From positions 1 through 51,096 of IMG/VR virus record IMGVR_UViG_3300025120_000083: a stretch of 51,096 nucleotides of DNA. One strand, 5' to 3'. Position 1 is the first letter of the stretch; the number at the start of each line of letters is the position of its first letter. Below the pieces are notes generated by a model. The model did not search any database. It saw only the letters and a list, made by a program, of their open reading frames with translations, and had not been told where the DNA came from. Source of the stretch: a virus. Positions 6,876-51,096 of the stretch are shown here, piece by piece. The position numbers were made by a program, and so were the translations under genes.

Positions 6876-8423
6876 ATGCAAGAATTAAAGTTAGTGAAAG
6901 AACTGGCTTTTGGCGAAACAGCCAGAGGCCAGATCTTAGCTGGCGTTGAAAAACTTACCAATGCTGTAGGTTCAACGTTAGGAGCAAGTGGTAAATGTGT
7001 AATACTAGAAGATGGCAATGGTTCACCTATAATAACGAAAGATGGTGTAACAGTAGCTAATTCAGTAACATTACAAAGACCATTAGAAAATATTGGAGCA
7101 ACACTTATTAAACAAGCTGCTCAAAGAACTGTATCAGATGCAGGAGATGGAACTACAACAGCAACAGTATTAGCAAAAGCTATATTAGATGAAGCTAATA
7201 AACACGACCTGTTAACTGACACTAGAACTATGAAAGAAGGTATTAACTTAGCTGTAGACAACGTAGTTAAATATCTTAACAAGAAAAGAAAAAAGATTAA
7301 AGGTAATAAAATAGATCAAGTAGCATCGATATCAGCTAATAACGATAAGCATTTAGGAAAGATAATAGGTGAAGCATTTAGAATGGTAGATGAAACCGGT
7401 ATAGTAATGATGGAGACAAATGAGGATCCAGAAACTGTAGTAGAACTAGTTGAAGGAGTACAATATAATCAACCATTAAAAAATCATCATTTTATTACAA
7501 ACAAAGAAAAAGGTATTTCTGAATTAGAAAATCCACTAGTTTTGATAGTAGAATCTAAAATAGAAAACATTAGAAAAATACAAGGTGTTTTAGAGCATGT
7601 TATAAAAAAAGGATTAAGCTTATTAATTATAGCAGATGTAGATACTCAAGTGTCATCAGCTCTAGCGATGAACAAAATGAAAGGTAACATCAAGGTTAAC
7701 ATTGTAGATGCACCTGTATATGGTATCAGTAAAAAAGAAACATTAAATGATCTATGTGCTGTTACTGGAGCTACTTTAATAAATGAAGACTTAGGAGATG
7801 ATATGGATCTTATAAGTGTAGAACATTTAGGTACATGTATTAAAGCAGTGTCAAACAATGAAGACACTATACTTCAAGTTGATTTAACTAATAACGAAGA
7901 TGTTAATCAGACTATAAACAGTCTTGATAAACTAATTAAAGAAACTACTAATCCTAATTTAATAGTTAGATATGAAAAAAGATTAGCAAAACTTAAAGCT
8001 AAAGTAGCTATTGTAAAAGTTGGTGCTAATTCTGAAGTAGAACTAAAAGAAAAAAGAGATAGAGTAGAAGATGCTATTTGTGCTACAAAAGCTGCTATTA
8101 AAGATGGTATAGTACCAGGAGGTGGTATAGCGTTGCTTAATGCTTCACAACAATTTACACCTAAATCTATTGGTGAAGAAGTTTTATACAAAGCTATTAA
8201 AAAACCTTTTGAAGTTATATTACAAAATGCTGGAGTAGAAGACTATAAAGAACCTACTCAAACGGGACAAGGACTAGACGTGGTTACAGGAAAAACGGTG
8301 GATATGGTAAAAGCCGGAATTATAGATCCTTTGTTAGTTACTAAAAGCGCATTACTTAACGCAGCTTCAGTAGCCACTACTATATTATCAACTGATTGTG
8401 TAATTAATAATATAAGAGCATGA
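6876..8423 (+). CDS. groEL: Phage chaperonin GroEL
   Basis: A 515-residue group I chaperonin subunit; E. coli GroEL has 548. The ATP site is kept: TLGASGK at 34-40, ITKDGVTVA at 53-61, GDGTTTATVLAK from residue 90 with D91 equal to GroEL D87, VEDAICATKAAIKDG with D399 equal to D398, and VPGGGIALL near 413. The apical domain is divergent and the Gly-Gly-Met tail is absent. It should form a ring folding phage proteins, most likely the capsid or large tail proteins encoded downstream. GroES overlaps its stop by an ATGA junction, and the order EL-ES is the reverse of the usual bacterial operon. Confidence 0.95.
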   Translation: MQELKLVKELAFGETARGQILAGVEKLTNAVGSTLGASGKCVILEDGNGSPIITKDGVTVANSVTLQRPLENIGATLIKQAAQRTVSDAGDGTTTATVLAKAILDEANKHDLLTDTRTMKEGINLAVDNVVKYLNKKRKKIKGNKIDQVASISANNDKHLGKIIGEAFRMVDETGIVMMETNEDPETVVELVEGVQYNQPLKNHHFITNKEKGISELENPLVLIVESKIENIRKIQGVLEHVIKKGLSLLIIADVDTQVSSALAMNKMKGNIKVNIVDAPVYGISKKETLNDLCAVTGATLINEDLGDDMDLISVEHLGTCIKAVSNNEDTILQVDLTNNEDVNQTINSLDKLIKETTNPNLIVRYEKRLAKLKAKVAIVKVGANSEVELKEKRDRVEDAICATKAAIKDGIVPGGGIALLNASQQFTPKSIGEEVLYKAIKKPFEVILQNAGVEDYKEPTQTGQGLDVVTGKTVDMVKAGIIDPLLVTKSALLNAASVATTILSTDCVINNIRA

Positions 8424-39748: not shown

Positions 39749-42700
39749 ATGACAAAAGAGGAATATGTACAATCCCTAAAAGATAAAGGGGTAAAAAAAG
39801 CAGAAGCTTTAGAATTGCTTAACCAATGGGATATTGAAAACAAACCTAAAGAAGTAGAGGTGGAAAAGACAGAAGTCGTTGCGGAGGATGCTGCACCTGT
39901 AACGGCGGCGAGCGAAAGCAGTACGGATTCCAGTTCGGAAAATATTTTATCGGAATTCTCTGTTGATAATCTAGAAGCAGCAGCTGCAGAAAAAGAACCT
40001 AAAAAGAAAAAGCCTAAAGACACATACAAGGTTGTAAATGTAAATGGTGAATTAATAATAGCTGACAATTTAGTAAAAATAAATAAAGATGAGCAGTTCT
40101 CAAAAGGTAAAGTAAAAGTAACTGGATCTATAAATGTAGATGATTCTCTACAAGATCTTAACATTAATTTTGGAGATAATGATGAAGGAGTTGTTAGATA
40201 TGACAAAATACAATTACCTAAAAATTTCGATGAATTAGATAATAAGAGATATGATATTGAAGATAGAGTAACTATAGACATACCAGGAGAAGACCCTTTA
40301 TCGCAAATTGTTAGTGAAAGTAGAGATTATTATATACCTATTTCTTTAGATTCTCAAGGCAATGAAGTTACTGGAAAACCTATAATGATCAGTAGAGATA
40401 GAAAAGAAGAGATGGCTACAGAGTTGATAATCGCTCATAATAGCTTAGATCCTAATGATCCTAAAAGAGAAGTTTTATACGAAAAAATAGAACAATTAAA
40501 TCCTGAATCTTTTAAAAGTATTACTGAAACAAAAGAATTAATTAATAAAAAAAATATAGAATTAAACGAAGCATCGTCACCAGAGGAAAAAGTTAAAATT
40601 CAAGATGAATTAAAAAAATTAGAAGAAAAAGTTAAAGAAGAAGAAAAAAATATAAGAGTCGATCCTTCTCTTGGTGGTAATGAAGGAGATATTATAAGAA
40701 CTTTTACAGGTGTAGGTTACAAGGTTGAACGAGCTGATGTTGGTTATTATACTGATAATATTAATGAAACGGAAAATTCTATTAAACAAAAGAATATAGA
40801 ACTAGAAGATCCAAACCTACCTGAAGAAGAAAGAACTAAAATACAAGAAGAATTAGAAGAATTAGAATCTAAAGCCAATAATCTATATGACTTACAAAGA
40901 AACGCTGCGCGTAATTATCAAACCTATTTAGATAACAATCCAAATACAGCAACTGGTGTTAATAAAATGGGGCCTAATGCCAATGTCGCTGTAAAAGGTT
41001 TAAATACTAAATTTAAGTTAGATGATAATAATGAAAAAATTCCTATATTAGATGAAGAAGGTGATCCTACTGGAGATTTTGAGATAGAAAGCTTTAATGT
41101 AAAAGACGATCAAGCCGTAGAAAACATTTCAAAACAGGACGCAAGAGAAGTAGCTACTAATATAAACAATAATTTTTTAAATTACAATATAGGAGCTGAC
41201 AAAGACGGTGATATGGTTTTTGTATATAAAAACCCTGTAATGGATAATAGTGGATCTGTAGACATTGTAGCAACCGCCTTAGCTAATGGCATGCCTGAGT
41301 CTGTTTTAGATGATGCTAAAAACATGTATAAGACTAGAAATTTGTTTTTTGATACACAGTCAGAAGCAGCTGGTAAATGGATGAAAGACAATGGATTTTC
41401 AAAGTCAGCAGAATTTAACTTAAGTACTTTCAATAGGTTAAAATCAGGTACTAAAGATCAATCGAGAAAAATAGAAGAGTTTGTTAATTTTATACAAAAT
41501 GAAAAATCAGAGTATAATACTACTGAAAATGTTTCGGAGTATCAGGATAAATTTGTAAATCCTATACTAATAAATAAACAAAAGAAACTTATTAAAAAAC
41601 AAGAAAAACTAGCCAATACAATAACTAGTGATATTGATAAGAACTTAAATAGAGTAGAGGAATCTAGGATACAAGCTCAAGTAGTCGCTGATAGAGTAGA
41701 CTCGATGAAGTTAAACTTTGACGCAACAACAGAAGATATAGTTAGATTAAACAAAGAGCAAGAAGGTTTAAATAAAGAAGCTCAAGATCTAGTAGATAAT
41801 CTTAAATTAGATATAGCAAAATTTCCTAGTGCCAAAAAAACACTTATAAAAAGATACGAAAAAGAAAGAAAAGATCTAGACAGATATTTTAATGAAGCTA
41901 AAAAAGAAAAGCAAGAAATTATAAAGAATTATGAAAAAGATTCTAATCAATTATTTAAAGAATACAACACTGAGTATGCTAAATTAAATGAAATTGACGT
42001 TGCATCTAATAGCGCTACATTAGCTATACAAACTAATTTAATGGACCTTAATATATTAGGTGGAATAAACCAACAAATAGGATATATTAATGCTCGTAAA
42101 TTAAAAATGAATCAACTAGTTTATGATAACGCTCAGGGTGAAGGAACGTATCTACATGCTATATCAAGAACATTTACTGATATGTTTGCCGAAATACAAG
42201 GTGGTAAAGCTCAGGCTTTTGCTGATTTAGCAGAAAAAATAAATTATTTAGAATATGGCGTTAACTACGCTTTAAAAGGAGAAAAGTTTGCTACAACTAA
42301 GTTTGATTGGTATCAAAACAAAATTAATCAAGATAGAATATCATTTGAACAAGATGTTAAAAGTGTACAAGAAGTTTTTAGACCAAAAGGAATGGACGAA
42401 GCTTTTTATAGACAATTTTCTCAGTCAACTATAGGTGGAACAATACAATCTCTTACTCAAATGGCTGCAGCAACAATGTCATCACCTGTAACTGGTTTGT
42501 TTGGAGGTTTTTTCTTTTCTGCTTTAGGAGAGAATAAAGCTAAAATAAGACAAATGGAGAAAGATTATATAAGTGATCTTAGAAAAAATAATCCTGATAT
42601 GTCTAGATCAGCTGCAAAAGCTAAGTTTGAAGAGAACTTTTCTCCTGCAAAGCAGCAAATGTATTCTTATGCACAAGCATCGGTAACAGGAGCTCTAAAC

Positions 42701-45700
42701 TACGTTAGTGGAAAAATATTAAAAGGTGGAGGTAAGTATAGTCAATCTGTAATAAACAAAATAACAAATAGTGTTTTAGGCAAAATGAATGGTAACGTAA
42801 CGGCTAGACAAATCCAAGTTGAAGTATATAAATTTATTGGTAAAAGAACTTCTAAGATTATTACTAAAGTAGGTAGGATGGGATTAGTTGGTAGTGAAGA
42901 ATTAGCTGAAGAAATAGCAGAAGGGCTAATTGGTGCAGGTATTGACAAGGGGTTCGAAGCAATGACAGATTTAAATTTTGAAAACTTTCTAGATATGGAC
43001 AGTGATACGTTCAAAAAAGAATTTACTCACATGGCTAAAGTATCTTTTCTATCAGGCGCTTTAGGTGGTTCTATAAATGTTGTGATGGATAAAAAAGATT
43101 TACTTACGCAACCAGAAGAAGAATTAAGTAGAGCGGAACTAAAAAGATTAGATAAGTTTTATGAGACTATAGCTGATAATGCTGCAAGTGTAGAAGGAAT
43201 GCAGCAAGAAATAGCCAAAAAGAAAGAAGAGTTTAACTTAGGATATATAACTGAAGAAGAATTTAAAAAGTATGAATTAGAAGTACAACAAAACTATAAT
43301 ATATATAGCAACATTGATAATGGTTTAAATGGTAGAACTATAATAAATATAGCTACACTTACAAAACGTAAAAACGCTTTAGAAGCAAAACTAGAAGGTA
43401 AAGATAAAAAAGCTAATGGAAGAATAGTAGAAGAAATAGATAGCATAGATAAACAAATAAAAGCTTTGTCAAGTGACTCTAATAACTTTAGACAAAAAGG
43501 AGCAGAAGATGTTATTGAAGAGCAACTACAAAAAGTAATAGATATTAAGAAAGAAAGAGGAGAAGTAGAAGAAGATTTTAAAGGAGAGATAATTACTTTT
43601 AATACGGACAACGTACAAGAAATAGCTGAAAAATATAATGTTCCTGTAGAGAGTTTAATAGATCCTGATACTGGGGATTTCAGTGCTGAAGGTTCTTATT
43701 TATCAGATCAAGGTGTTATATTAATGTCTGAACAAGCTGCAGAAGGTGTTTTGGAGCATGAAGGATTACATAACTACTTAAACATAGCTCTTAATAAAGA
43801 AGAGAATAAAAATGTAGTGTTTTCATTAGCTAATAGCTTGATGAAAAAGATGGAAAAAATAAATCCTGAAGCTGCTGAAGAAATTAAAAATCAATTAAAA
43901 AAATATGAAGATGATCCTAACTACACAGCTCAACAAGTAGCAGAGGAAACTTTAACATATTATGCTCAACTTAAAAAAGCTGGCGTATTTGATCAAGATA
44001 AGTCTTACGCAAGGAAATTTATGGATTATATTCAAAAGCTTCTTAGAAGTGCAGGTTTTGGCGCTGTGGAGGTTAACGAAGGTAATATAGATAAAATTAT
44101 AGATGATTATGTTAGTAATGTTTCAAGAGGTAAAACTAGTAAGGCTCAAGACAAGGTATTAAAAGGAGATGTAAAGATTGACGATAAAACTAAAATTAAA
44201 GGTAAAGAAATTGCTGAAGTTAAAGTAAATCCTAAAAATACTAAAGTTATAGATATCAACGAAAACGTTAATAAAAATAATCAAACAAAGCAAGCTGCTT
44301 CTAAAGTTGTTCAAGCAAAACCTTTAAGTACAAAAGTTGATGTTAATTCAATGTCTAATTCTTTTGATCAAAATCTTGATGAAAATTTAAAAACTAATGA
44401 TGACTTTAAAAATAGTGAAGCAGCTATAGATGCTTTTTATACTATAGATTCTGATAGTAATTTTGAAAGTTATTTAAAACAAGTTATAAATAGAGATAAT
44501 AACTTACAAGGTTTAGATCAAGATATAAAACAAGATATACTAAGAGATTTAAAAGAAGATTTGAATCTTAGAGTTTTGAAAAATTTTAAACCAGAGCTTG
44601 ATGGTAATAAAAGAAGTTTATTTAGTTATATATATGGTAAAAAAGAAAGCAATGGATTAGGGGGTATTGCTCAAAAAGCTTTATTAGATATAAAAAAGAA
44701 ATATGCTACTAGACCAGACTCAAATGCTTCTAGTACTGATGCTGTAGACAGTGAAGGTAGAACTAGAGACTATGCTGACACTAGTGCTGATAAGGATATA
44801 ATAAGTAGAATAGACGAAGGAGAAGCTGCTGAAGCTCCAAGATCTACTTTTAGAAGAAACATAGTTAGAGGAAAAGAAAAGGGATTAACACCAAAAGAAG
44901 TTAAAGAGTTTAAAAAAATAGCTGAACCTTTGCTAAGTAAACTGCCTGATGTTAACGCTAAAAACTATAGAACTAAAGTAAATCAAATAGCTGGTCCTGC
45001 TCTTAAAAAATGGGTTAAAGAAAATATAATAAAGGGTCAAGATTATAAAACTTTTCTAAACGATAATTATAATAATATAAGAGATTTAGGTGTTGATTAT
45101 TTAATAGATCTAGACAAAGGTTTACAGAAACAAGGTAAACCTAGAATGTTTACTGAATTTAATAAAAAATTAACTACACAAGCTGAAATAAGAAAATATA
45201 GAGATTCTGGTAGAGCTTTTGTGGAAAATGAAGCACAAGGTGTTTCACTTTTTGATATTAAAAACCCAGGGCCAGAAGCTCTTGTGGAATTTTTCACTAA
45301 CGATACTGCTTCAAATAACTCTAATAGAAAAGGAAAGCTAATGGAAGCTTTTGGCAAGAAGATGTTTAAAGACTTTATGCCAGAGAGTAGAGCTAATAAA
45401 GGAGATACTGACCAAACAAAAGCTACTTCTGCTAGAAAGACAAGTGTTGATCCAACTGTTCTTTTTTCTAAAACATTTGACGCTAAGGCTATATCTAAAT
45501 TAAAAAATATAGCAGGATTAAGAAGTAAAAATCAAGTAGCTAAAGAATTAGGCTTTGATGGTAGTGCAATAAATGAAAAAGGTAGACCAAAATTCTTAAA
45601 ACAAATGCAAGATGCAGCGGTAAATGGTCAAATTGATTTAGCTACTATAGAATCTGCACTAATGATGAGTGGTGGTAAAGAAACTTTTTATGGTACTGTA

Positions 45701-48700
45701 GATGGTAAGAAATATAAAAGTTATGGTAACGCATTAAAAAATGGTATTGAAATGCCTTTAAAATTTGCTAAAAGAGATAATGGTGATTACATTGTTATAG
45801 CAAAACCAAAAAAGGTTAAAAATAAAGAAATACCAGTGTATTATTCTGATAAGTCTATAGATAGAGAAGTTGCTAAACATAGTGATTATGTACCTAAAAC
45901 AGGAAGACTATATTGGGGAGCTAAAGATCCTAAGTATAAAGAGCTTGTTGAAGCTGCTGATAAATCTCCATTTAATTCTAAATATAAAAAAATAGATCCT
46001 ATGAGAAAAGGTAGGGGATCTGTTAAGTCTATATTGAATTCAGAAAAAGAACAACAAAAGTTAAACATGGAAATGCTAGATCATGTTGTTAATCAATTAA
46101 GTAATTCTGTTAACAATGAAAAGAATCCTTTATCTATGGATGTTGCTGGTTTGATTATAATACAAAGTTATCAAGCAACTTCTGGTTTAATAAAATCAGC
46201 TGCTCCATTTAAGTATATATCTGATGTATTTGAATCTGGTAGTAAAAAAGAAACAAGATCTAAAAAAGATTACAGAGAAGAACATAATCCTCCAGCGTCT
46301 GTTGTAGGAGCTAGTATTCTTTATGCTATTAAAAACAATCAGCCAAAAGCTGTGATGAAAGATATTAAAGAAAACTTTTATCAAACTATACTTTCTAAAA
46401 AAGATGACAGCTTGCTTGATGTTGATTATGCCGCAACACTTCCTGAAGGAACTTATATAGGTGACAATCCTATTATACGTATGGCTATGTCAGGTATAAA
46501 TTTAAATACCATTAAGAATATTGAAACAAATCAAAGTATAGCAGATGAGTTTGGTTTAGGTGTAGCAGAAACGGTTCAAAATTTTCCAAATGTATTTAAT
46601 TTTCAAAACAAACTTATAGAAGAAGTAGTTAAAGGTAAAACAAAATTGTCTGATGCTAAGAAAAGACTTGCAGTTTATACTGAATTTCCTAGCAATGGAG
46701 AACCTAGTTTAGCTAAAACTCAAAATGACGCAACAAAAGATACTGAAAACACACTACAACAATCTAAAGTTTTAGATACTAATAAAAACATGGACGTAGA
46801 AACATTGTTAAGTAAAGCTGCTAGTATAGATGCGGCTTTGGCTAATGCTAATAAACTAAATGCTCCTGTTAAAAAAATAAGAGTATTTGACTTTGATGAT
46901 ACATTGGCTACTAGCAATAATTTAGTATTTTATACATCTCCTGACGGTAAGACAGGTCAATTAAATGCTGAACAATTTGCTACTGATGGTAAAAGACTAA
47001 TGGACGAAGGTTATGTTATGGACTTTAGCGATTTTAATAAAGTAACCGACGGTGGTAAAGGACCTTTATTTGATATAGCTAAAAAAATAGATGAAGCAAG
47101 AGGTAACGAAGACTTATATGTTTTAACAGCTAGAGCACCTGAAGCGAGAGATGCTATTTATGAGTTTTTAAAAGCTGAAGGTTTAGAATTTAAAAGAGAA
47201 AATATAGTTGGACTTGGAAACTCGACTGGTGAAGCTAAAGCTAACTGGATAATAGACAAAGCAGCTGATGGATATAATGATTTTTATTTTGCAGATGATG
47301 CTTATCAAAATGTTAAATCAGTTAGAGATGCTTTAAGCGTTATAGATGTTAAATCAAAAGTTCAACAAGCAAAAATTCAACAAAGTAAAAATTTAAGTAA
47401 TCAGTTTAATAAATTAATAGAGCAAACAACGGGAGTTGATTTTTATAAAGAATATTCTCCAGCTAAAGCAAGAACTAAAGGAGCTAACAAAGGTAAGTTT
47501 AAATTTTTTATACCTCACTCTGCTGAAGATTTTATGGGATTAATATATCCTACTTTAGGAAAAGGTAGTGTAGGTGATAAGCAAATGGCTTGGTATAAAA
47601 AACATTTATTAAACCCTTATACTAAAGCACAAGAGAATTTATCTGCTGCTAGATTAAACTTAATGAGTGATTTTAAACAACTTAAAAAATCATTAAACGT
47701 TCCTAAAGATCTTAGAAAAAAGAACTCTACAGGAATGACAAATGAACAAGCTGTTAGAGTTTATTTATTTAAAGGTATGGATTATGATGTTCCTGGTTTA
47801 TCTAAAACAGATTTAAAAGAATTACAATCTGTAGTAGAAAACGATCCTAAACTAAAAGAATTTGCAGAGCAAATATTAACTATAACTAAAGGTGATGGGT
47901 ATTCTAAACCAAGAGATGCTTGGTTGACTGGTACTATAACTACAGATTTAATAGATTTAATTAATACAGAGAAAAGAGCTAAATATTTAACTGAGTGGCA
48001 AGAAAATGTAGATGTAATATATTCTAAAGAGAACTTAAATAAATTAGAAGCTTTATATGGTACTAAATATAGAGAAGCTTTAGAAGGTATATTAAGTAGA
48101 ATGAAGTCTGGTAGAAACAGATTAGATACTGGTAATAGGTTAAGCAATAAAATACTTGACTATATAAACGGTTCTGTTGGTACAATAATGTTCTTTAATA
48201 CTAGATCAGCAGTGCTACAGACTATATCTGCAATAAACTTTTTAAATTGGAATTTTAATAATCCATTAATGGCTGGTAAAGCTTTTGCAAATCAAAAACA
48301 ATATTGGTCTGACTTTGCTATGCTTATGAATTCTGATTATTTAATGGATAGACGTAACGGTTTAAAACTTAATATATCAGAAAGTGAAATAGCAGATGCT
48401 GCAGCAACAAGTAAGAATAAAGCTAAAGCAGCTTTAAATTATATACTTCAAAAAGGTTATCTACCTACTCAATACGCTGATAGTTTTGCTATAGCTTCTG
48501 GAGGTGCTACATTTTATAGAAATAGAGTTAATGATTTAATAAAAAATGAAGGTAAAACTAAGGCAGAAGCTGAGACTCAAGCTTTAATAGAGTGGAGACA
48601 AGTTGCTGAAACATCTCAACAGTCTTCAGATCCTAGTAAAATATCTGCTCAACAATCTAGTGACTTAGGTAGGATTATACTAGCGTTTGCTAACACACCT

Positions 48701-49744
48701 ATGCAATACGCTCGTATACAGAAAAGAGCTATACAAGATTTAGTTAACGGTAGAGGCGATGCTAAAACTCATGTTAGCAAGATCATATATTACGGGGTGT
48801 TACAAAATGTTATATTCAACGCTTTACAACAAGCTGTATTTGCTATAGGATTTGGAGATGATGATGATGAAGATCCTAAAACTGAAGCAGCTAAACAAAA
48901 GAAATATTTAAATACAGCAAATGGAATGCTTGACTCAATGTTAAGAGGTTTAGGTATAGGTGGAGCAGCTGTTTCTGTAGGTAAAAACTTTTTATTAGAT
49001 ATATACGAAAGATCAGGCAGAGATAGACCTGAATATGTAGACGCTGTTTGGAAACTAATGCAATTTTCTCCTCCTATAAGTTCTAAAATATCTAAAATGA
49101 AACAAGCTGCTTGGCATTTTGATAGCAAAAAAAGAAGAGAAGTTATATTTGATAAAGGATTTGCTTTAGATAATCCAGCTTATGAAGCTTTTGCAAAGGT
49201 TGTTTCTGCTACAGCGAACGTTCCTATAGATAGGTTGTTTTATAAAATGAAAAATATAGAAGGAGCTTTAAACGAAGAGAACGACTTATGGCAAAGAATA
49301 GCAATGCTAGCTGGTTGGCCTAAGTGGCAGCTAGAATCTAAAAAAGAAAGTGAAAACATAGAAGTAACACCTGAACAAAAAGAAAAAGCTAAAGCAGCTA
49401 AAGCTATTCAAGCTTATAAAGCAGCTAAAGGTTCTACTGATTATGATACTATTAAAAAGCTAACTTCAGCTCAGCAAATAAAAATGCTTAAAGGCTTAGG
49501 TTATGGTGACTATACTATTAAAAATGCAAAGTCTGAGAAGGCTAAGATAGATTTAATAATACACAAAAATAAAGGTGGGAAAATAAAGATAGATAAAAAA
49601 GCTGTTGATACAGCTAAGTATAAAGCCTTGAGTAAGGCAGATCAAGTAAGAAAGCTTGATAGCTTAGGATTAAGTAAAGCTGATATTGCAGCTTTGAAAT
49701 ATGAAAAAGATAGAGTTGCTAAGTTATTAGAGCTCATGAAATAA
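39749..49744 (+). CDS. Giant ejection-type virion protein with protease and HAD domains
   Basis: A 3331-residue multidomain protein. Residues 1-90 are acidic and disordered; long coiled coils follow to about 860. Residues 890-930 (TIQSLTQMAAATMSSPVTGL, FGGFFFSALGE) form a hydrophobic segment. H1337-E1338-G-L-H1341 in GVLEHEGLHNYLN, with a later AEETL, is a zinc metallopeptidase signature. D2381-F-D2383-D in RVFDFDDTLATSN, LTARAPEARDAIYEFL and DFYFADDAYQNVKSV are HAD-family motifs I, II and IV. The C-terminal 850 residues (NGSVGTIMFFNTRSAVLQTI; QSSDLGRIILAFANTPMQYA) resemble large virion proteins of marine phages. It may act like T7 gp16 in genome delivery. The gene ends before a terminator. 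Confidence 0.85.
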   Translation: MTKEEYVQSLKDKGVKKAEALELLNQWDIENKPKEVEVEKTEVVAEDAAPVTAASESSTDSSSENILSEFSVDNLEAAAAEKEPKKKKPKDTYKVVNVNGELIIADNLVKINKDEQFSKGKVKVTGSINVDDSLQDLNINFGDNDEGVVRYDKIQLPKNFDELDNKRYDIEDRVTIDIPGEDPLSQIVSESRDYYIPISLDSQGNEVTGKPIMISRDRKEEMATELIIAHNSLDPNDPKREVLYEKIEQLNPESFKSITETKELINKKNIELNEASSPEEKVKIQDELKKLEEKVKEEEKNIRVDPSLGGNEGDIIRTFTGVGYKVERADVGYYTDNINETENSIKQKNIELEDPNLPEEERTKIQEELEELESKANNLYDLQRNAARNYQTYLDNNPNTATGVNKMGPNANVAVKGLNTKFKLDDNNEKIPILDEEGDPTGDFEIESFNVKDDQAVENISKQDAREVATNINNNFLNYNIGADKDGDMVFVYKNPVMDNSGSVDIVATALANGMPESVLDDAKNMYKTRNLFFDTQSEAAGKWMKDNGFSKSAEFNLSTFNRLKSGTKDQSRKIEEFVNFIQNEKSEYNTTENVSEYQDKFVNPILINKQKKLIKKQEKLANTITSDIDKNLNRVEESRIQAQVVADRVDSMKLNFDATTEDIVRLNKEQEGLNKEAQDLVDNLKLDIAKFPSAKKTLIKRYEKERKDLDRYFNEAKKEKQEIIKNYEKDSNQLFKEYNTEYAKLNEIDVASNSATLAIQTNLMDLNILGGINQQIGYINARKLKMNQLVYDNAQGEGTYLHAISRTFTDMFAEIQGGKAQAFADLAEKINYLEYGVNYALKGEKFATTKFDWYQNKINQDRISFEQDVKSVQEVFRPKGMDEAFYRQFSQSTIGGTIQSLTQMAAATMSSPVTGLFGGFFFSALGENKAKIRQMEKDYISDLRKNNPDMSRSAAKAKFEENFSPAKQQMYSYAQASVTGALNYVSGKILKGGGKYSQSVINKITNSVLGKMNGNVTARQIQVEVYKFIGKRTSKIITKVGRMGLVGSEELAEEIAEGLIGAGIDKGFEAMTDLNFENFLDMDSDTFKKEFTHMAKVSFLSGALGGSINVVMDKKDLLTQPEEELSRAELKRLDKFYETIADNAASVEGMQQEIAKKKEEFNLGYITEEEFKKYELEVQQNYNIYSNIDNGLNGRTIINIATLTKRKNALEAKLEGKDKKANGRIVEEIDSIDKQIKALSSDSNNFRQKGAEDVIEEQLQKVIDIKKERGEVEEDFKGEIITFNTDNVQEIAEKYNVPVESLIDPDTGDFSAEGSYLSDQGVILMSEQAAEGVLEHEGLHNYLNIALNKEENKNVVFSLANSLMKKMEKINPEAAEEIKNQLKKYEDDPNYTAQQVAEETLTYYAQLKKAGVFDQDKSYARKFMDYIQKLLRSAGFGAVEVNEGNIDKIIDDYVSNVSRGKTSKAQDKVLKGDVKIDDKTKIKGKEIAEVKVNPKNTKVIDINENVNKNNQTKQAASKVVQAKPLSTKVDVNSMSNSFDQNLDENLKTNDDFKNSEAAIDAFYTIDSDSNFESYLKQVINRDNNLQGLDQDIKQDILRDLKEDLNLRVLKNFKPELDGNKRSLFSYIYGKKESNGLGGIAQKALLDIKKKYATRPDSNASSTDAVDSEGRTRDYADTSADKDIISRIDEGEAAEAPRSTFRRNIVRGKEKGLTPKEVKEFKKIAEPLLSKLPDVNAKNYRTKVNQIAGPALKKWVKENIIKGQDYKTFLNDNYNNIRDLGVDYLIDLDKGLQKQGKPRMFTEFNKKLTTQAEIRKYRDSGRAFVENEAQGVSLFDIKNPGPEALVEFFTNDTASNNSNRKGKLMEAFGKKMFKDFMPESRANKGDTDQTKATSARKTSVDPTVLFSKTFDAKAISKLKNIAGLRSKNQVAKELGFDGSAINEKGRPKFLKQMQDAAVNGQIDLATIESALMMSGGKETFYGTVDGKKYKSYGNALKNGIEMPLKFAKRDNGDYIVIAKPKKVKNKEIPVYYSDKSIDREVAKHSDYVPKTGRLYWGAKDPKYKELVEAADKSPFNSKYKKIDPMRKGRGSVKSILNSEKEQQKLNMEMLDHVVNQLSNSVNNEKNPLSMDVAGLIIIQSYQATSGLIKSAAPFKYISDVFESGSKKETRSKKDYREEHNPPASVVGASILYAIKNNQPKAVMKDIKENFYQTILSKKDDSLLDVDYAATLPEGTYIGDNPIIRMAMSGINLNTIKNIETNQSIADEFGLGVAETVQNFPNVFNFQNKLIEEVVKGKTKLSDAKKRLAVYTEFPSNGEPSLAKTQNDATKDTENTLQQSKVLDTNKNMDVETLLSKAASIDAALANANKLNAPVKKIRVFDFDDTLATSNNLVFYTSPDGKTGQLNAEQFATDGKRLMDEGYVMDFSDFNKVTDGGKGPLFDIAKKIDEARGNEDLYVLTARAPEARDAIYEFLKAEGLEFKRENIVGLGNSTGEAKANWIIDKAADGYNDFYFADDAYQNVKSVRDALSVIDVKSKVQQAKIQQSKNLSNQFNKLIEQTTGVDFYKEYSPAKARTKGANKGKFKFFIPHSAEDFMGLIYPTLGKGSVGDKQMAWYKKHLLNPYTKAQENLSAARLNLMSDFKQLKKSLNVPKDLRKKNSTGMTNEQAVRVYLFKGMDYDVPGLSKTDLKELQSVVENDPKLKEFAEQILTITKGDGYSKPRDAWLTGTITTDLIDLINTEKRAKYLTEWQENVDVIYSKENLNKLEALYGTKYREALEGILSRMKSGRNRLDTGNRLSNKILDYINGSVGTIMFFNTRSAVLQTISAINFLNWNFNNPLMAGKAFANQKQYWSDFAMLMNSDYLMDRRNGLKLNISESEIADAAATSKNKAKAALNYILQKGYLPTQYADSFAIASGGATFYRNRVNDLIKNEGKTKAEAETQALIEWRQVAETSQQSSDPSKISAQQSSDLGRIILAFANTPMQYARIQKRAIQDLVNGRGDAKTHVSKIIYYGVLQNVIFNALQQAVFAIGFGDDDDEDPKTEAAKQKKYLNTANGMLDSMLRGLGIGGAAVSVGKNFLLDIYERSGRDRPEYVDAVWKLMQFSPPISSKISKMKQAAWHFDSKKRREVIFDKGFALDNPAYEAFAKVVSATANVPIDRLFYKMKNIEGALNEENDLWQRIAMLAGWPKWQLESKKESENIEVTPEQKEKAKAAKAIQAYKAAKGSTDYDTIKKLTSAQQIKMLKGLGYGDYTIKNAKSEKAKIDLIIHKNKGGKIKIDKKAVDTAKYKALSKADQVRKLDSLGLSKADIAALKYEKDRVAKLLELMK

Positions 49745-49779
49745 GGAACAAAAAAACTGGGCACCATACCCAAAGTTCC
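49745..49779. other. Hairpin with GGAAC/GTTCC ends
   Basis: GGAAC at 49745-49749 pairs with GTTCC at 49775-49779, and inside TGGG at 49758-49761 can pair with CCCA at 49769-49772. It begins on the base after the giant gene's stop. There is no T run after it, so it is not a standard terminator; it may protect the 3' end of the late mRNA. Confidence 0.4.
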
Positions 49780-49787
49780 TGTAACCA

Positions 49788-49818
49788 AAAAGGGGAAGTC
49801 GTAATGACCTCCCCTTTT
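49788..49818. terminator. Bidirectional terminator between convergent genes
   Basis: A 13-bp stem, AAAAGGGGAAGTC / GACCTCCCCTTTT with one G-U pair and a 5-nt loop. The T run at its right end serves plus-strand transcripts, and the A run at its left end becomes a U run for minus-strand ones. It separates the late block from the leftward reductase unit. Confidence 0.9.
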
Positions 49819-49823
49819 ATTAT

Positions 49824-49862
49824 TTAGCAGCTACCACAGTAGCTATCGCAATATGGACACAT
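49824..49862 (-). CDS. 12-residue Cys-rich micro-ORF with CPYC
   Basis: From ATG 49862-49860 to TAA 49826-49824 the frame reads MCPYCDSYCGSC: four Cys in 12 residues, including CPYC, the classical glutaredoxin active site. It begins 17 nt after the reductase stop with an A/T leader (CAAATATT before ATG) and ends 5 nt before the terminator, so it lies on the same transcript. It may be a minimal thiol or metal-binding peptide serving the reductase. Translation is unproven and a chance frame of this size is possible, but the composition is unusual. Confidence 0.45.
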   Translation of the reverse strand: MCPYCDSYCGSC

Positions 49863-49879
49863 AATATTTGTTTTAAAAA

Positions 49880-51096
49880 TTAAGTAATTTCACAAGCACC
49901 ACCGGCACAGGCTAGTTCGCCTGATAAATCCGTGTTGTCTTCAGTTTCAATAACGTTTTCTAAATTTATATCTTTTAAATGTTGCAACTTATTTATATAA
50001 GTTCCTTCGTCAATATCCTCGAAAGGAGCTTGTATATAAGTTCCACCGTCATAAGGTAATACAGATAAGCCGTTGTAATGTTCTCTGTTTGTCCACATCC
50101 ACTCTCCTGCATCTTCCCACTCTTCAGCTTTTAAACTAACGGTAGCAGAAACATTGTGAGTGTTAGATCCTTTTCTATGACCAGGTGTAACCCATTCTGT
50201 AGCAACCTTTTTTATACGTTCAAGTAATTGAAAAGGTGATTCAGTTCTAAGTATAGAACCTTCAGGCGCTTTCTGTGGTATACTAATTACAGCAGTGTCA
50301 TGAGGTCTAAAATATTCATCTTCTACTAACAGTGGGTGGTTTTCAACTAGGTATTTATATATACTTTCGTTTTTACCAACTCTGATTCTACGGACATAGT
50401 AATCGTTATGCCATGCATGAATACCAGATGATGTTCCTAACGCCAGAGATGTTGTCCCTGCAGGCTTCACAGTCGTACATCTAGCTGATTGATTAATTCC
50501 AATCACTTTCGCGACTCTTGCGTTTTCTCTTTTTACTATTTGAGCGGCCTTCTTCATGTCGTATCCTAACACTGTGCCAGAACCTATTCCCGTCATCGAT
50601 ACTCCGATCAACGCGTCTTTTTCTGTTGTTTCTTTCCATACATCTCTTAAGTAGTGAAAGTCTGTATATCCAGCTTGTAACGTTCCTATGAACGCAGCTG
50701 CTTTCACTCTGTTATTAAAATCATCTTGTGACTCTATGTCACTAGCATTTACTTCACATAAGTTACAAAACTGATTAGGTCGTAAAGCTATTTCACAACA
50801 AGGGTTTGTGCCCCAGTCTTTATCATTGTTAAAGTATATTCCAGGTTCGCCTGCGCCTGATAGTTCTACACGTTTCCATAAACCCATAAAAAACTCTTTA
50901 GTTATTTTATGTCTCATAAGAACAGCAGAGTTATTAGCTCTACCTCTTTGTGGATTTGTTTCCCACCAGTTTCCAGACTTGCAAGAGATCATCTCCTCGT
51001 CGTCCGCTGAGAACAGACTTATCAAAGCTGCTCGACGTATCCCACCAGCTAAGACGGCGTCTGCAATATGGCAGACTATATCGTGTACTTCTATAG
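49880..51096 (-). CDS. nrdJ: Adenosylcobalamin-dependent ribonucleoside-triphosphate reductase, 5' part outside window
   Basis: The C-terminal 405 residues or so of a class II monomeric reductase; the frame is open to the right edge (VHDIVCHIADAVLAGGIRRA, then ALISLFSADDEEM). NPCCEIALRPNQFC has the active-site Cys (C408 in the Lactobacillus leichmannii enzyme), Glu two residues on (E410) and Cys eleven residues on (C419). The C-terminus ACAGGACEIT carries the C-x-G-G-A-C pair that re-reduces the active site. It makes dNTPs from NTPs for phage DNA synthesis using B12 and an external thiol reductant. Orientation fits the early/metabolic arm. Confidence 0.92.
   Translation of the reverse strand, partial: IEVHDIVCHIADAVLAGGIRRAALISLFSADDEEMISCKSGNWWETNPQRGRANNSAVLMRHKITKEFFMGLWKRVELSGAGEPGIYFNNDKDWGTNPCCEIALRPNQFCNLCEVNASDIESQDDFNNRVKAAAFIGTLQAGYTDFHYLRDVWKETTEKDALIGVSMTGIGSGTVLGYDMKKAAQIVKRENARVAKVIGINQSARCTTVKPAGTTSLALGTSSGIHAWHNDYYVRRIRVGKNESIYKYLVENHPLLVEDEYFRPHDTAVISIPQKAPEGSILRTESPFQLLERIKKVATEWVTPGHRKGSNTHNVSATVSLKAEEWEDAGEWMWTNREHYNGLSVLPYDGGTYIQAPFEDIDEGTYINKLQHLKDINLENVIETEDNTDLSGELACAGGACEIT

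Follow-up and report, generated by a model that had tools for sequence, protein, structure and literature searches.

The window analysed here, a stretch of 51,096 nt that makes up a 51-kb virus record, raises the question of whether a frame of only twelve codons located behind a ribonucleotide reductase gene encodes a peptide and, if so, of what kind. Among deposited phages, the terminase and a virion structural protein of this virus match only those of Flavobacteriia phages and of the environmental podovirus MW202828. The frame, MCPYCDSYCGSC*, consists of 12 codons and a TAA stop and is read on the minus strand from 49862 to 49824 (49824..49862; the plus strand reads LAATTVAIAIWTH). Four of its 12 residues are cysteines, arranged in two C(P)xC(G) knuckles, CPYC and CGSC. 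Its ATG lies 17 nt past the TAA of the reductase gene, in the same direction and in another frame, and it is therefore a separate ORF. The reductase gene is cut by the window end, so that only its 404 C-terminal codons are present (49880..51094, minus strand). The encoded protein is of class II type, ends in LACAGGACEIT, carries a tail with two cysteines without any C-terminal zinc finger, and has as best NCBIfam match TIGR02505 (adenosylcobalamin-dependent RTPR, E=1.8e-43), under the curated cut-off. Downstream from the tiny ORF, folding of the minus strand predicts T1, a terminator-like hairpin of 13 bp followed by a T-run (49788..49818), then T2, a nested hairpin element (49745..49786). The stop of a giant convergent ORF of 3331 aa (39749..49744, plus strand), which closes the late operon, abuts T2. 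An earlier note on this DNA had described a twelve-residue CPYC peptide encoded between the reductase stop and the terminator, in the same direction. The ORF is indeed found there, 17 nt past the TAA and ahead of the hairpin at 49818-49788, and, as the note also remarked, it is too short for standard annotation, peptides of 12 codons being below the reach of protein libraries.

Among the three tiny ORFs (8–24 codons) of the window that encode four cysteines, two lie within long ORFs and MCPYCDSYCGSC is the sole one outside. As a chance control, first-order Markov sequence was generated from the window's composition to a length of 2 Mb; it contained four ORFs of 8–20 codons with at least four cysteines. 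The leader between the reductase stop and the ATG (49863..49879, minus strand; TAATTTTTAAAACAAATATT) is A-rich. The note's mention of a proper leader does not hold as regards a Shine-Dalgarno sequence, which is absent, but does hold as regards the start type of the phage itself: the 33 gene starts listed for the window are A-rich and mostly devoid of a Shine-Dalgarno sequence. On a matrix derived from these 33 starts, TAATTTTTAAAACAAATATT scores 7.5 (leave-one-out median of the starts, 3.8), a value reached by 0.2% of the 1558 other ATGs of the window.

The recurrence of the frame was examined in three sets of loci. The first includes 69 viral contigs chosen solely by an exact 30-mer of T2, GGTTACAGGAACTTTGGGTATGGTGCCCAG (49757-49786). 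The tiny ORF is present in 48 of them within the DNA examined; 11 of the 21 contigs without it cover less than 300 nt upstream from the 30-mer, and in one of these 11 (G013) the peptide was found farther up the same contig. The second set was obtained by alignment of a thioredoxin-like protein alone (231 relatives, 80 kept, 62 distinct loci). A same-strand tiny ORF with at least four cysteines occurs in 48 of the 62 loci, searched up to about 2.5 kb on each side, and is located at most 60 nt past the stop of the thioredoxin-like gene in 33 of the 62; the opposite strand of the same 62 loci contains none. At least two of the 21 frames found elsewhere in these loci are probably due to chance (L335, and L355 with MGRYRCFWCCITCGRF). 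The third set consists of the 80 reductase loci (76 distinct) among the viral-contig matches listed. A tiny ORF of 8–20 codons with at least four cysteines lies within 1 kb behind the reductase in 6 of the 76 distinct loci among the matches listed, and other positions of the same 76 loci hold one such frame on the same strand and three on the opposite strand.

Pattern searches enlarged the family. The general pattern MCxxCxxxCxxC* retrieved 102 stretches, including chance frames within longer genes, e.g. MCLLCFSWCVVC. The 118 members classed by pattern were reduced to 101 by dropping those with identical 120-nt surroundings. The strict pattern is found once in each of the 38 records with a match (12 of 32 and 26 of 26), plus one chance match in G001, the 32 records being a mixed set of which about 20 had been picked since the peptide had not been seen there. 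The reversed pattern gave no match in 58 records. Eight contigs (G002, G003, G004, G021, G008, G017, G010 and G020) contain no tiny four-cysteine ORF outside long ORFs, and since these contigs do without it, the tiny ORF is dispensable. A hidden peptide of another cysteine architecture was considered for these eight relatives and discarded, their five tiny four-cysteine frames all lying within long ORFs.

The coding sequence itself was examined by counting changes on the single-step edges of minimum spanning trees, after removal of the frames outside the MC[PE]xC or MCxxCxGGxC classes, including MCEYCGGGCRGC and chance frames. For the 13-codon class, 14 of 17 changes are synonymous (0.24 expected), and 11 of 13 (p=8e-6) in its element-selected set; for the 12-codon class, the counts are 7 of 11 and, in its element-selected set, 1 of 1. 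Because the search patterns demand Cys and Gly codons, which partly biases these first counts, changes were recounted on the codons that the patterns leave free; there, 6 of 6 and 7 of 10 are synonymous, or 13 of 16 when pooled (0.30 expected, p=3e-5). The same trend is found in a subgroup without the RNA hairpin described below (11 of 14, p=2e-5) and in the thioredoxin-linked set (8 of 12, p=0.002). From one test, 12 members that overlap out of frame the signal peptide of the next gene were excluded; the L219-type members among them are N-extended. These counts indicate that the tiny ORF is under purifying selection at the amino-acid level. It could be objected that tiny ORFs are common and that the general pattern also caught MCLLCFSWCVVC-like frames in longer genes, as would be expected from a frame that is open by chance. 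The unbiased recurrence, the strand, the leader and the selection leave next to no credence for this explanation, which is regarded as already refuted. Judging from these comparisons, the frame is a real, conserved coding ORF and not a chance frame, and it is conserved next to reductases, the point on which the earlier note had staked its proposal.

Members of the family are peptides of 11–19 residues in which a segment of about 11 residues contains four or more cysteines, cysteine accounting for up to one-third of the residues. In the lineage that carries the 30-mer and the reductase, the types MCPYC[DN][SG]YC[GC][SG]C, MCELC[EGQ]GLC[QG]GC and MCEYCNGYCG[SG]C are found, together with MC[GP]LCLGG[IT]CEYC.. 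and MC[DE][GN]C[PT]GG[FI]CPWC. Lineage B encodes MCELCGGHCGLC or MCPICNGYCGLC, mostly 3–4 nt behind an exported thioredoxin-like protein. A third lineage has AGGAGG leaders (L203, L221, L253 and L267). In the four contigs of the latter, a Shine-Dalgarno core precedes 25 of 38 long ORFs; in three lineage-B loci, it precedes 2 of 40. The leaders of the tiny ORFs thus fit the start type of each genome. Thioredoxin-linked loci display further spacings (MCPFC[PE]ICICK, MCGIPNCPFC[CI]GC, MCDFNCPFC[TN][GA]C and MENICPICI[GS]CGFC). N-extended members also exist, such as MTNETTNPCPLCGGYCGIC and MKNEKNTICAICGGYCGIC, the MTNETTNPCPLCGGYCGIC-like ones showing the knuckle consensus CPxCGGYCGxC. In L204, L219, L303 and L357, the start and the signal peptide of the next gene share nucleotides with the tiny ORF but are read in another frame. 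Taken as a whole, the cysteine spacings are x2-x3-x2, x2-x4-x2, x2-x2-x1, x3/4-x2-x2 and x2-x2-x2 depending on the group, the CxxC pairs of the forms seen being 1–4 residues apart. This variation makes a single fixed fold unlikely. Residues other than cysteine (GG, PW, EY, LGG) are conserved too.

The earlier note had read CPYC as the active site of glutaredoxin. In relatives, the slot occupied by CPYC in the window reads CELC, CEYC, CGLC, CDGC, CENC, CPLC or CPIC, only the four cysteines and usually a glycine remaining constant, and a mimic of glutaredoxin was therefore rejected. Glutaredoxin and NrdH share with the family only the letters CPYC, in one subgroup; glutaredoxin has a thioredoxin-like fold of about 80 residues and two cysteines, whereas MCPYCDSYCGSC has 12 codons, four cysteines and no such fold. 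Reductases 95–97% identical to that of the window accompany differing peptide types (L002 and L233). As the reductase of L233, 96% identical to that of the window, is paired with the peptide MCELCEGLCQGC, the peptide appears to change or to be swapped while its cysteines stay.

The vicinity of the reductase nevertheless calls for an explanation. A class II reductase is found upstream, on the same strand and at a distance of 14–890 nt, in 62 of the 101 deduplicated family loci, which is not an unbiased share since the set was partly fetched by the peptide pattern. The peptide might reduce the reductase as a minimal, glutaredoxin-like CPYC dithiol or relay electrons to it, much as a detached Cys-rich C-terminal domain of class II enzymes would. 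The tail of the window's reductase, with its two cysteines and no zinc finger, would be in keeping with such a role, as would the available text of PMC5704485, where a Cys-rich zinc domain is described as the mediator of turnover and no native reductant was found. This domain, as described in the accessible parts of PMC5704485 and PMC9669993, has four cysteines for zinc and a class II context in common with the window's peptide, but it is fused and has six cysteines, whereas the phage 12-mer is free and is also found beside a class I reductase or where no reductase was found. Glutaredoxin (PF00462) is absent from the 15 peptide-bearing records searched, window included, which could favour a substitute; however, it is also absent from the four peptide-less relatives that carry the same reductase. 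Anticorrelation with a phage glutaredoxin was accordingly dropped as a sign of redox function, the counts (0 of 15 peptide-bearing records, 0 of 4 peptide-less ones and 7 of 16 other reductase records, the seven comprising 5 above cut-off and being mostly much larger contigs) giving it no support.

Other lineages argue against this role. The reductase type of the window was not found in any of 26 records of other lineages, and a different reductase was detected in 5 of the 9 such records searched with PF02867. The reductase of G041 is of class I according to NCBIfam (NF006577 above cut-off; it was the only one tested), and the lineage-B reductases are of class I character (565–573 aa, ending in CVACDG or similar). 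In lineage A, the early operon ends with the peptide ORF, ahead of the terminators. In lineage B, it lies near the end of the late operon and faces the reductase of class I character; in G049, where they are on opposite strands, about 185 nt separate the two. Its other neighbours in these lineages are the thioredoxin-like gene, a peptidase and a giant virion gene; where no copy lies behind the thioredoxin-like gene, it is often found before a 392-aa outer-membrane-like gene or behind a peptidase that, from its sequence, we take to be of M15 type. The exported thioredoxin-like protein of lineage B matches PF00085 above cut-off, and the CGPC site reads NEVN(C) in it (a motif compared by eye, in a region spanned by a gap in the alignment). 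This protein is conserved without its CxxC site in L208, L228, L231, L236 and others, C60 being nearly invariant. Because the neighbours vary and some genomes have a class I reductase, a dedicated dithiol donor or partner of the B12 enzyme is unlikely. As an exclusive role, partnership with the B12 enzyme was rejected, other lineages having a different reductase or none found. The low frequency of the tiny ORF in reductase loci chosen without reference to the peptide (the 6 of 76 mentioned above, among the matches listed) points the same way. Furthermore, as no other ORF separates the peptide from the terminators in the reductase lineage, its closeness to the reductase may only reflect position. 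Overall, the reductant or relay hypothesis is held to be improbable. What stands of the earlier proposal is that a conserved, coding frame for a Cys-rich peptide is frequently found behind class II reductases; a dedication to the B12 enzyme is contradicted by the other lineages. The reductase link is partly positional, and a loose link cannot be fully told apart from position.

A second small Cys-rich family behind the same reductase could be taken as an additional argument for the reductant hypothesis. The DUF5522-like motif RGxCCxxxxCxHC follows the class II reductase at up to 1.2 kb, mostly within 400 nt, in 50 of the 80 loci among the matches listed (L002–L081); none of these 80 has it together with the tiny ORF. 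DUF5522 (PF17653) thus resembles the tiny ORF in being small, Cys-rich and located behind this reductase, though in other phages; its CCxxxCxHC architecture is unlike that of the tiny peptides, from which this motif is absent. Frames matching PF17653 are 61–75 aa long in the four records matched, and no match was found in 28 records of lineages A–C. No paper naming DUF5522 was found in the literature searched. The DUF5522-like ORF is a possible reductase partner.

Selection also appears to act on RNA. In the reductase-linked 12-codon group, codons 7–8 pair with codons 10–12 around the third Cys codon to form a hairpin, H0 (AGCTAC TGTG GTAGCT, codons 7–12; 49829..49844, minus strand, in the window). 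All 22 distinct sequences of this group have a perfect 6-bp stem, a result equalled neither by synonymous-codon recoding (at most 6 of 22 in 2000 draws) nor by half-shuffles (0 of 2000). In 17 of the 22 sequences, hand-picked against near-duplicates, 100% of the cells are paired (23–67% in slid controls), with 16 two-sided changes and a covariation of 0.61 vs. 0.37 in shuffles (0 of 500). The stem is also present in 14 of 15 sequences of the LEU-GLY-GLY group (13–15 codons). These data could suggest that what is conserved at the operon end is a structured RNA made up of H0, T1 and T2, the ORF being incidental. However, in that register, H0 is found in none of 14 sequences of the PGG group and is missing from 11 of the 12 lineage-B or thioredoxin-linked sequences, the four cysteines being kept in both cases; the one that pairs is probably MCELCGGLCGGC, a reductase-lineage sequence held in the lineage-B list. 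T2 is missing downstream of 16 of 16 thioredoxin-linked loci. Lastly, in the hairpin half of the ORF of the window's subgroup, 9 of 14 changes are non-synonymous while the pairs persist, whereas changes outside the hairpin are synonymous (5 of 6 in codons 2–6; 8 of 8 in codons 2–7 of the other group). H0 is real where present, and the four cysteines are the sole feature common to all groups, so that an RNA with an incidental ORF is given a low probability, similar to that of a reductant.

A short ORF rich in one codon family and directly ahead of a terminator hairpin is also reminiscent of the leader peptide of an attenuator, which would sense cysteine or stall the ribosome on Cys codons. Such a regulator would be misplaced at the end of an operon: in the reductase lineage, no same-strand gene follows, and in the window a convergent gene is found there. 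Besides, a tRNA gene separates the tiny ORF from T1 in some loci, lineage B has neither T1 nor T2 behind the tiny ORF, and the residues conserved include the non-Cys ones listed above. An attenuator is therefore very improbable. The tRNA gene, identified by eye, was seen in L023, L085, L095, L097, L100, L122, L145, L234, L245 and L268. The 30-mer GGTTACAGGAACTTTGGGTATGGTGCCCAG of T2 (minus strand) is near-invariant at the early/late junction; in L261, T2 lies behind the late operon in the other orientation. Some phages have T1 in the form GGGGAGGTCATTACGACTTCCCC and others in that of its exact reverse complement, as if the hairpin had been flipped. A search of Rfam with 49600-50100 gave three hits, all far under gathering scores, and T2 is not in Rfam.

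The reading held likeliest, and rated somewhat better than an even chance, is that the ORFs constitute a genuine family of phage microproteins in which the thiolates of two knuckle-like motifs would hold one metal ion, the peptide acting as a stand-alone factor. It is favoured because the four thiolates are shared, because CPxCGGYCGxC recalls zinc knuckles, and because MW202828, the nearest deposited relative, has a ribbon-like ORF at the junction. The following model can be drawn. The tiny ORF would be translated into a free peptide, whose four thiolates (CPxC..CGxC, in its best form CPxCGGYCGxC) would bind one metal ion, most likely Zn2+. The product would fold as a zinc knuckle pair in miniature, lacking the ribbon between the knuckles. 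More tentatively, it could serve as a cytosolic metal-thiolate factor, either a metal buffer or a knuckle docking on a host or phage protein; it would not be a subunit of a neighbour, since the cysteines are retained even though the genomic location varies. In the subgroup that includes the window, selection also acts on the ORF's 3' half as an RNA hairpin, beside the operon-end terminators. The idea put forward in the earlier note of a Cys-rich metal-binding peptide for the B12 enzyme is thus retained for its metal-binding part, as a conjecture, and abandoned for the B12-dedicated part. The ORF of MW202828 (L293:416-517) encodes 33 aa with CxxC and CxxxC and lies at the same early/late convergent junction; it is annotated 'A2l zinc ribbon domain', and its best Pfam match, Zn_ribbon_TiaS, is below cut-off. 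The gene table of MW202828 includes no reductase. This ribbon and the tiny peptide may be unrelated.

Zinc ribbons have about 10 or more residues between their knuckles, and the 1–4 residues found between the CxxC pairs of the phage peptides fall outside this spacing. With metallothioneins and phytochelatins, the family has in common a very high cysteine content, shortness and tolerance in spacing; metallothioneins are longer than the phage peptides and phytochelatins are not ribosomal. Closer in organization are the zinc-finger micro-proteins HVO_0758 and HVO_2753 of Haloferax, which, in the available portion of PMC10716476, are likewise very small and stand-alone, with four cysteines in two C(P)XCG motifs. 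Their CPxCG is also found in the N-extended phage members (CPxCG and CGxC). However, these proteins have 56 and 59 aa (PMC10716476, same portion), whereas the phage peptides of 11–19 aa leave no room for a ribbon, and no homology is shown. In addition, C(P)XCG is no guarantee of zinc, as 4 of the 10 haloarchaeal cases tested in that portion of PMC10716476 bound none.

If metal binding is confirmed, the family would set a low size limit for a genetically encoded, selected metalloprotein, with a 12-mer that can readily be synthesised. A broader proposal, that a large phage group has as standard accessory a gene for a free-standing ribosomal metal-thiolate peptide of 11–13 residues, perhaps the smallest natural metalloprotein gene, and that the same nucleotides encode a selected RNA hairpin at the early-operon end in one subgroup, is put forward tentatively, its chances being judged somewhat below even. 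The case also shows that one stretch of 16 nucleotides can carry both a peptide-coding signal and an RNA hairpin, and that the reductase context, conspicuous as it is, comes down mostly to position. ORFs this short are ignored by gene finders and family libraries; this family stands out by its conservation, strand, leader and selection in dozens of contigs, from environmental phages whose closest cultured relatives infect Flavobacteria. No paper on it was found in the literature searched on tiny four-cysteine phage peptides. The smORF catalogue of PMC11364881 used, according to its available text, a 30-nt minimum, so that members may lie unnoticed in it. Among deposited phage records, the strict pattern gave 0 of 9, and the window region yielded only short chance matches against 50,697 phage records. 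In the prokaryote genomes of 84,980 species, the strict pattern had one hit, MCKQCFGDCGIC, which is intergenic in a Roseburia MAG, has a poorly spaced Shine-Dalgarno sequence and was set aside as probably due to chance. Elsewhere in the window, the phage encodes a GroEL-like chaperonin (6876-8423, phrog_5725).
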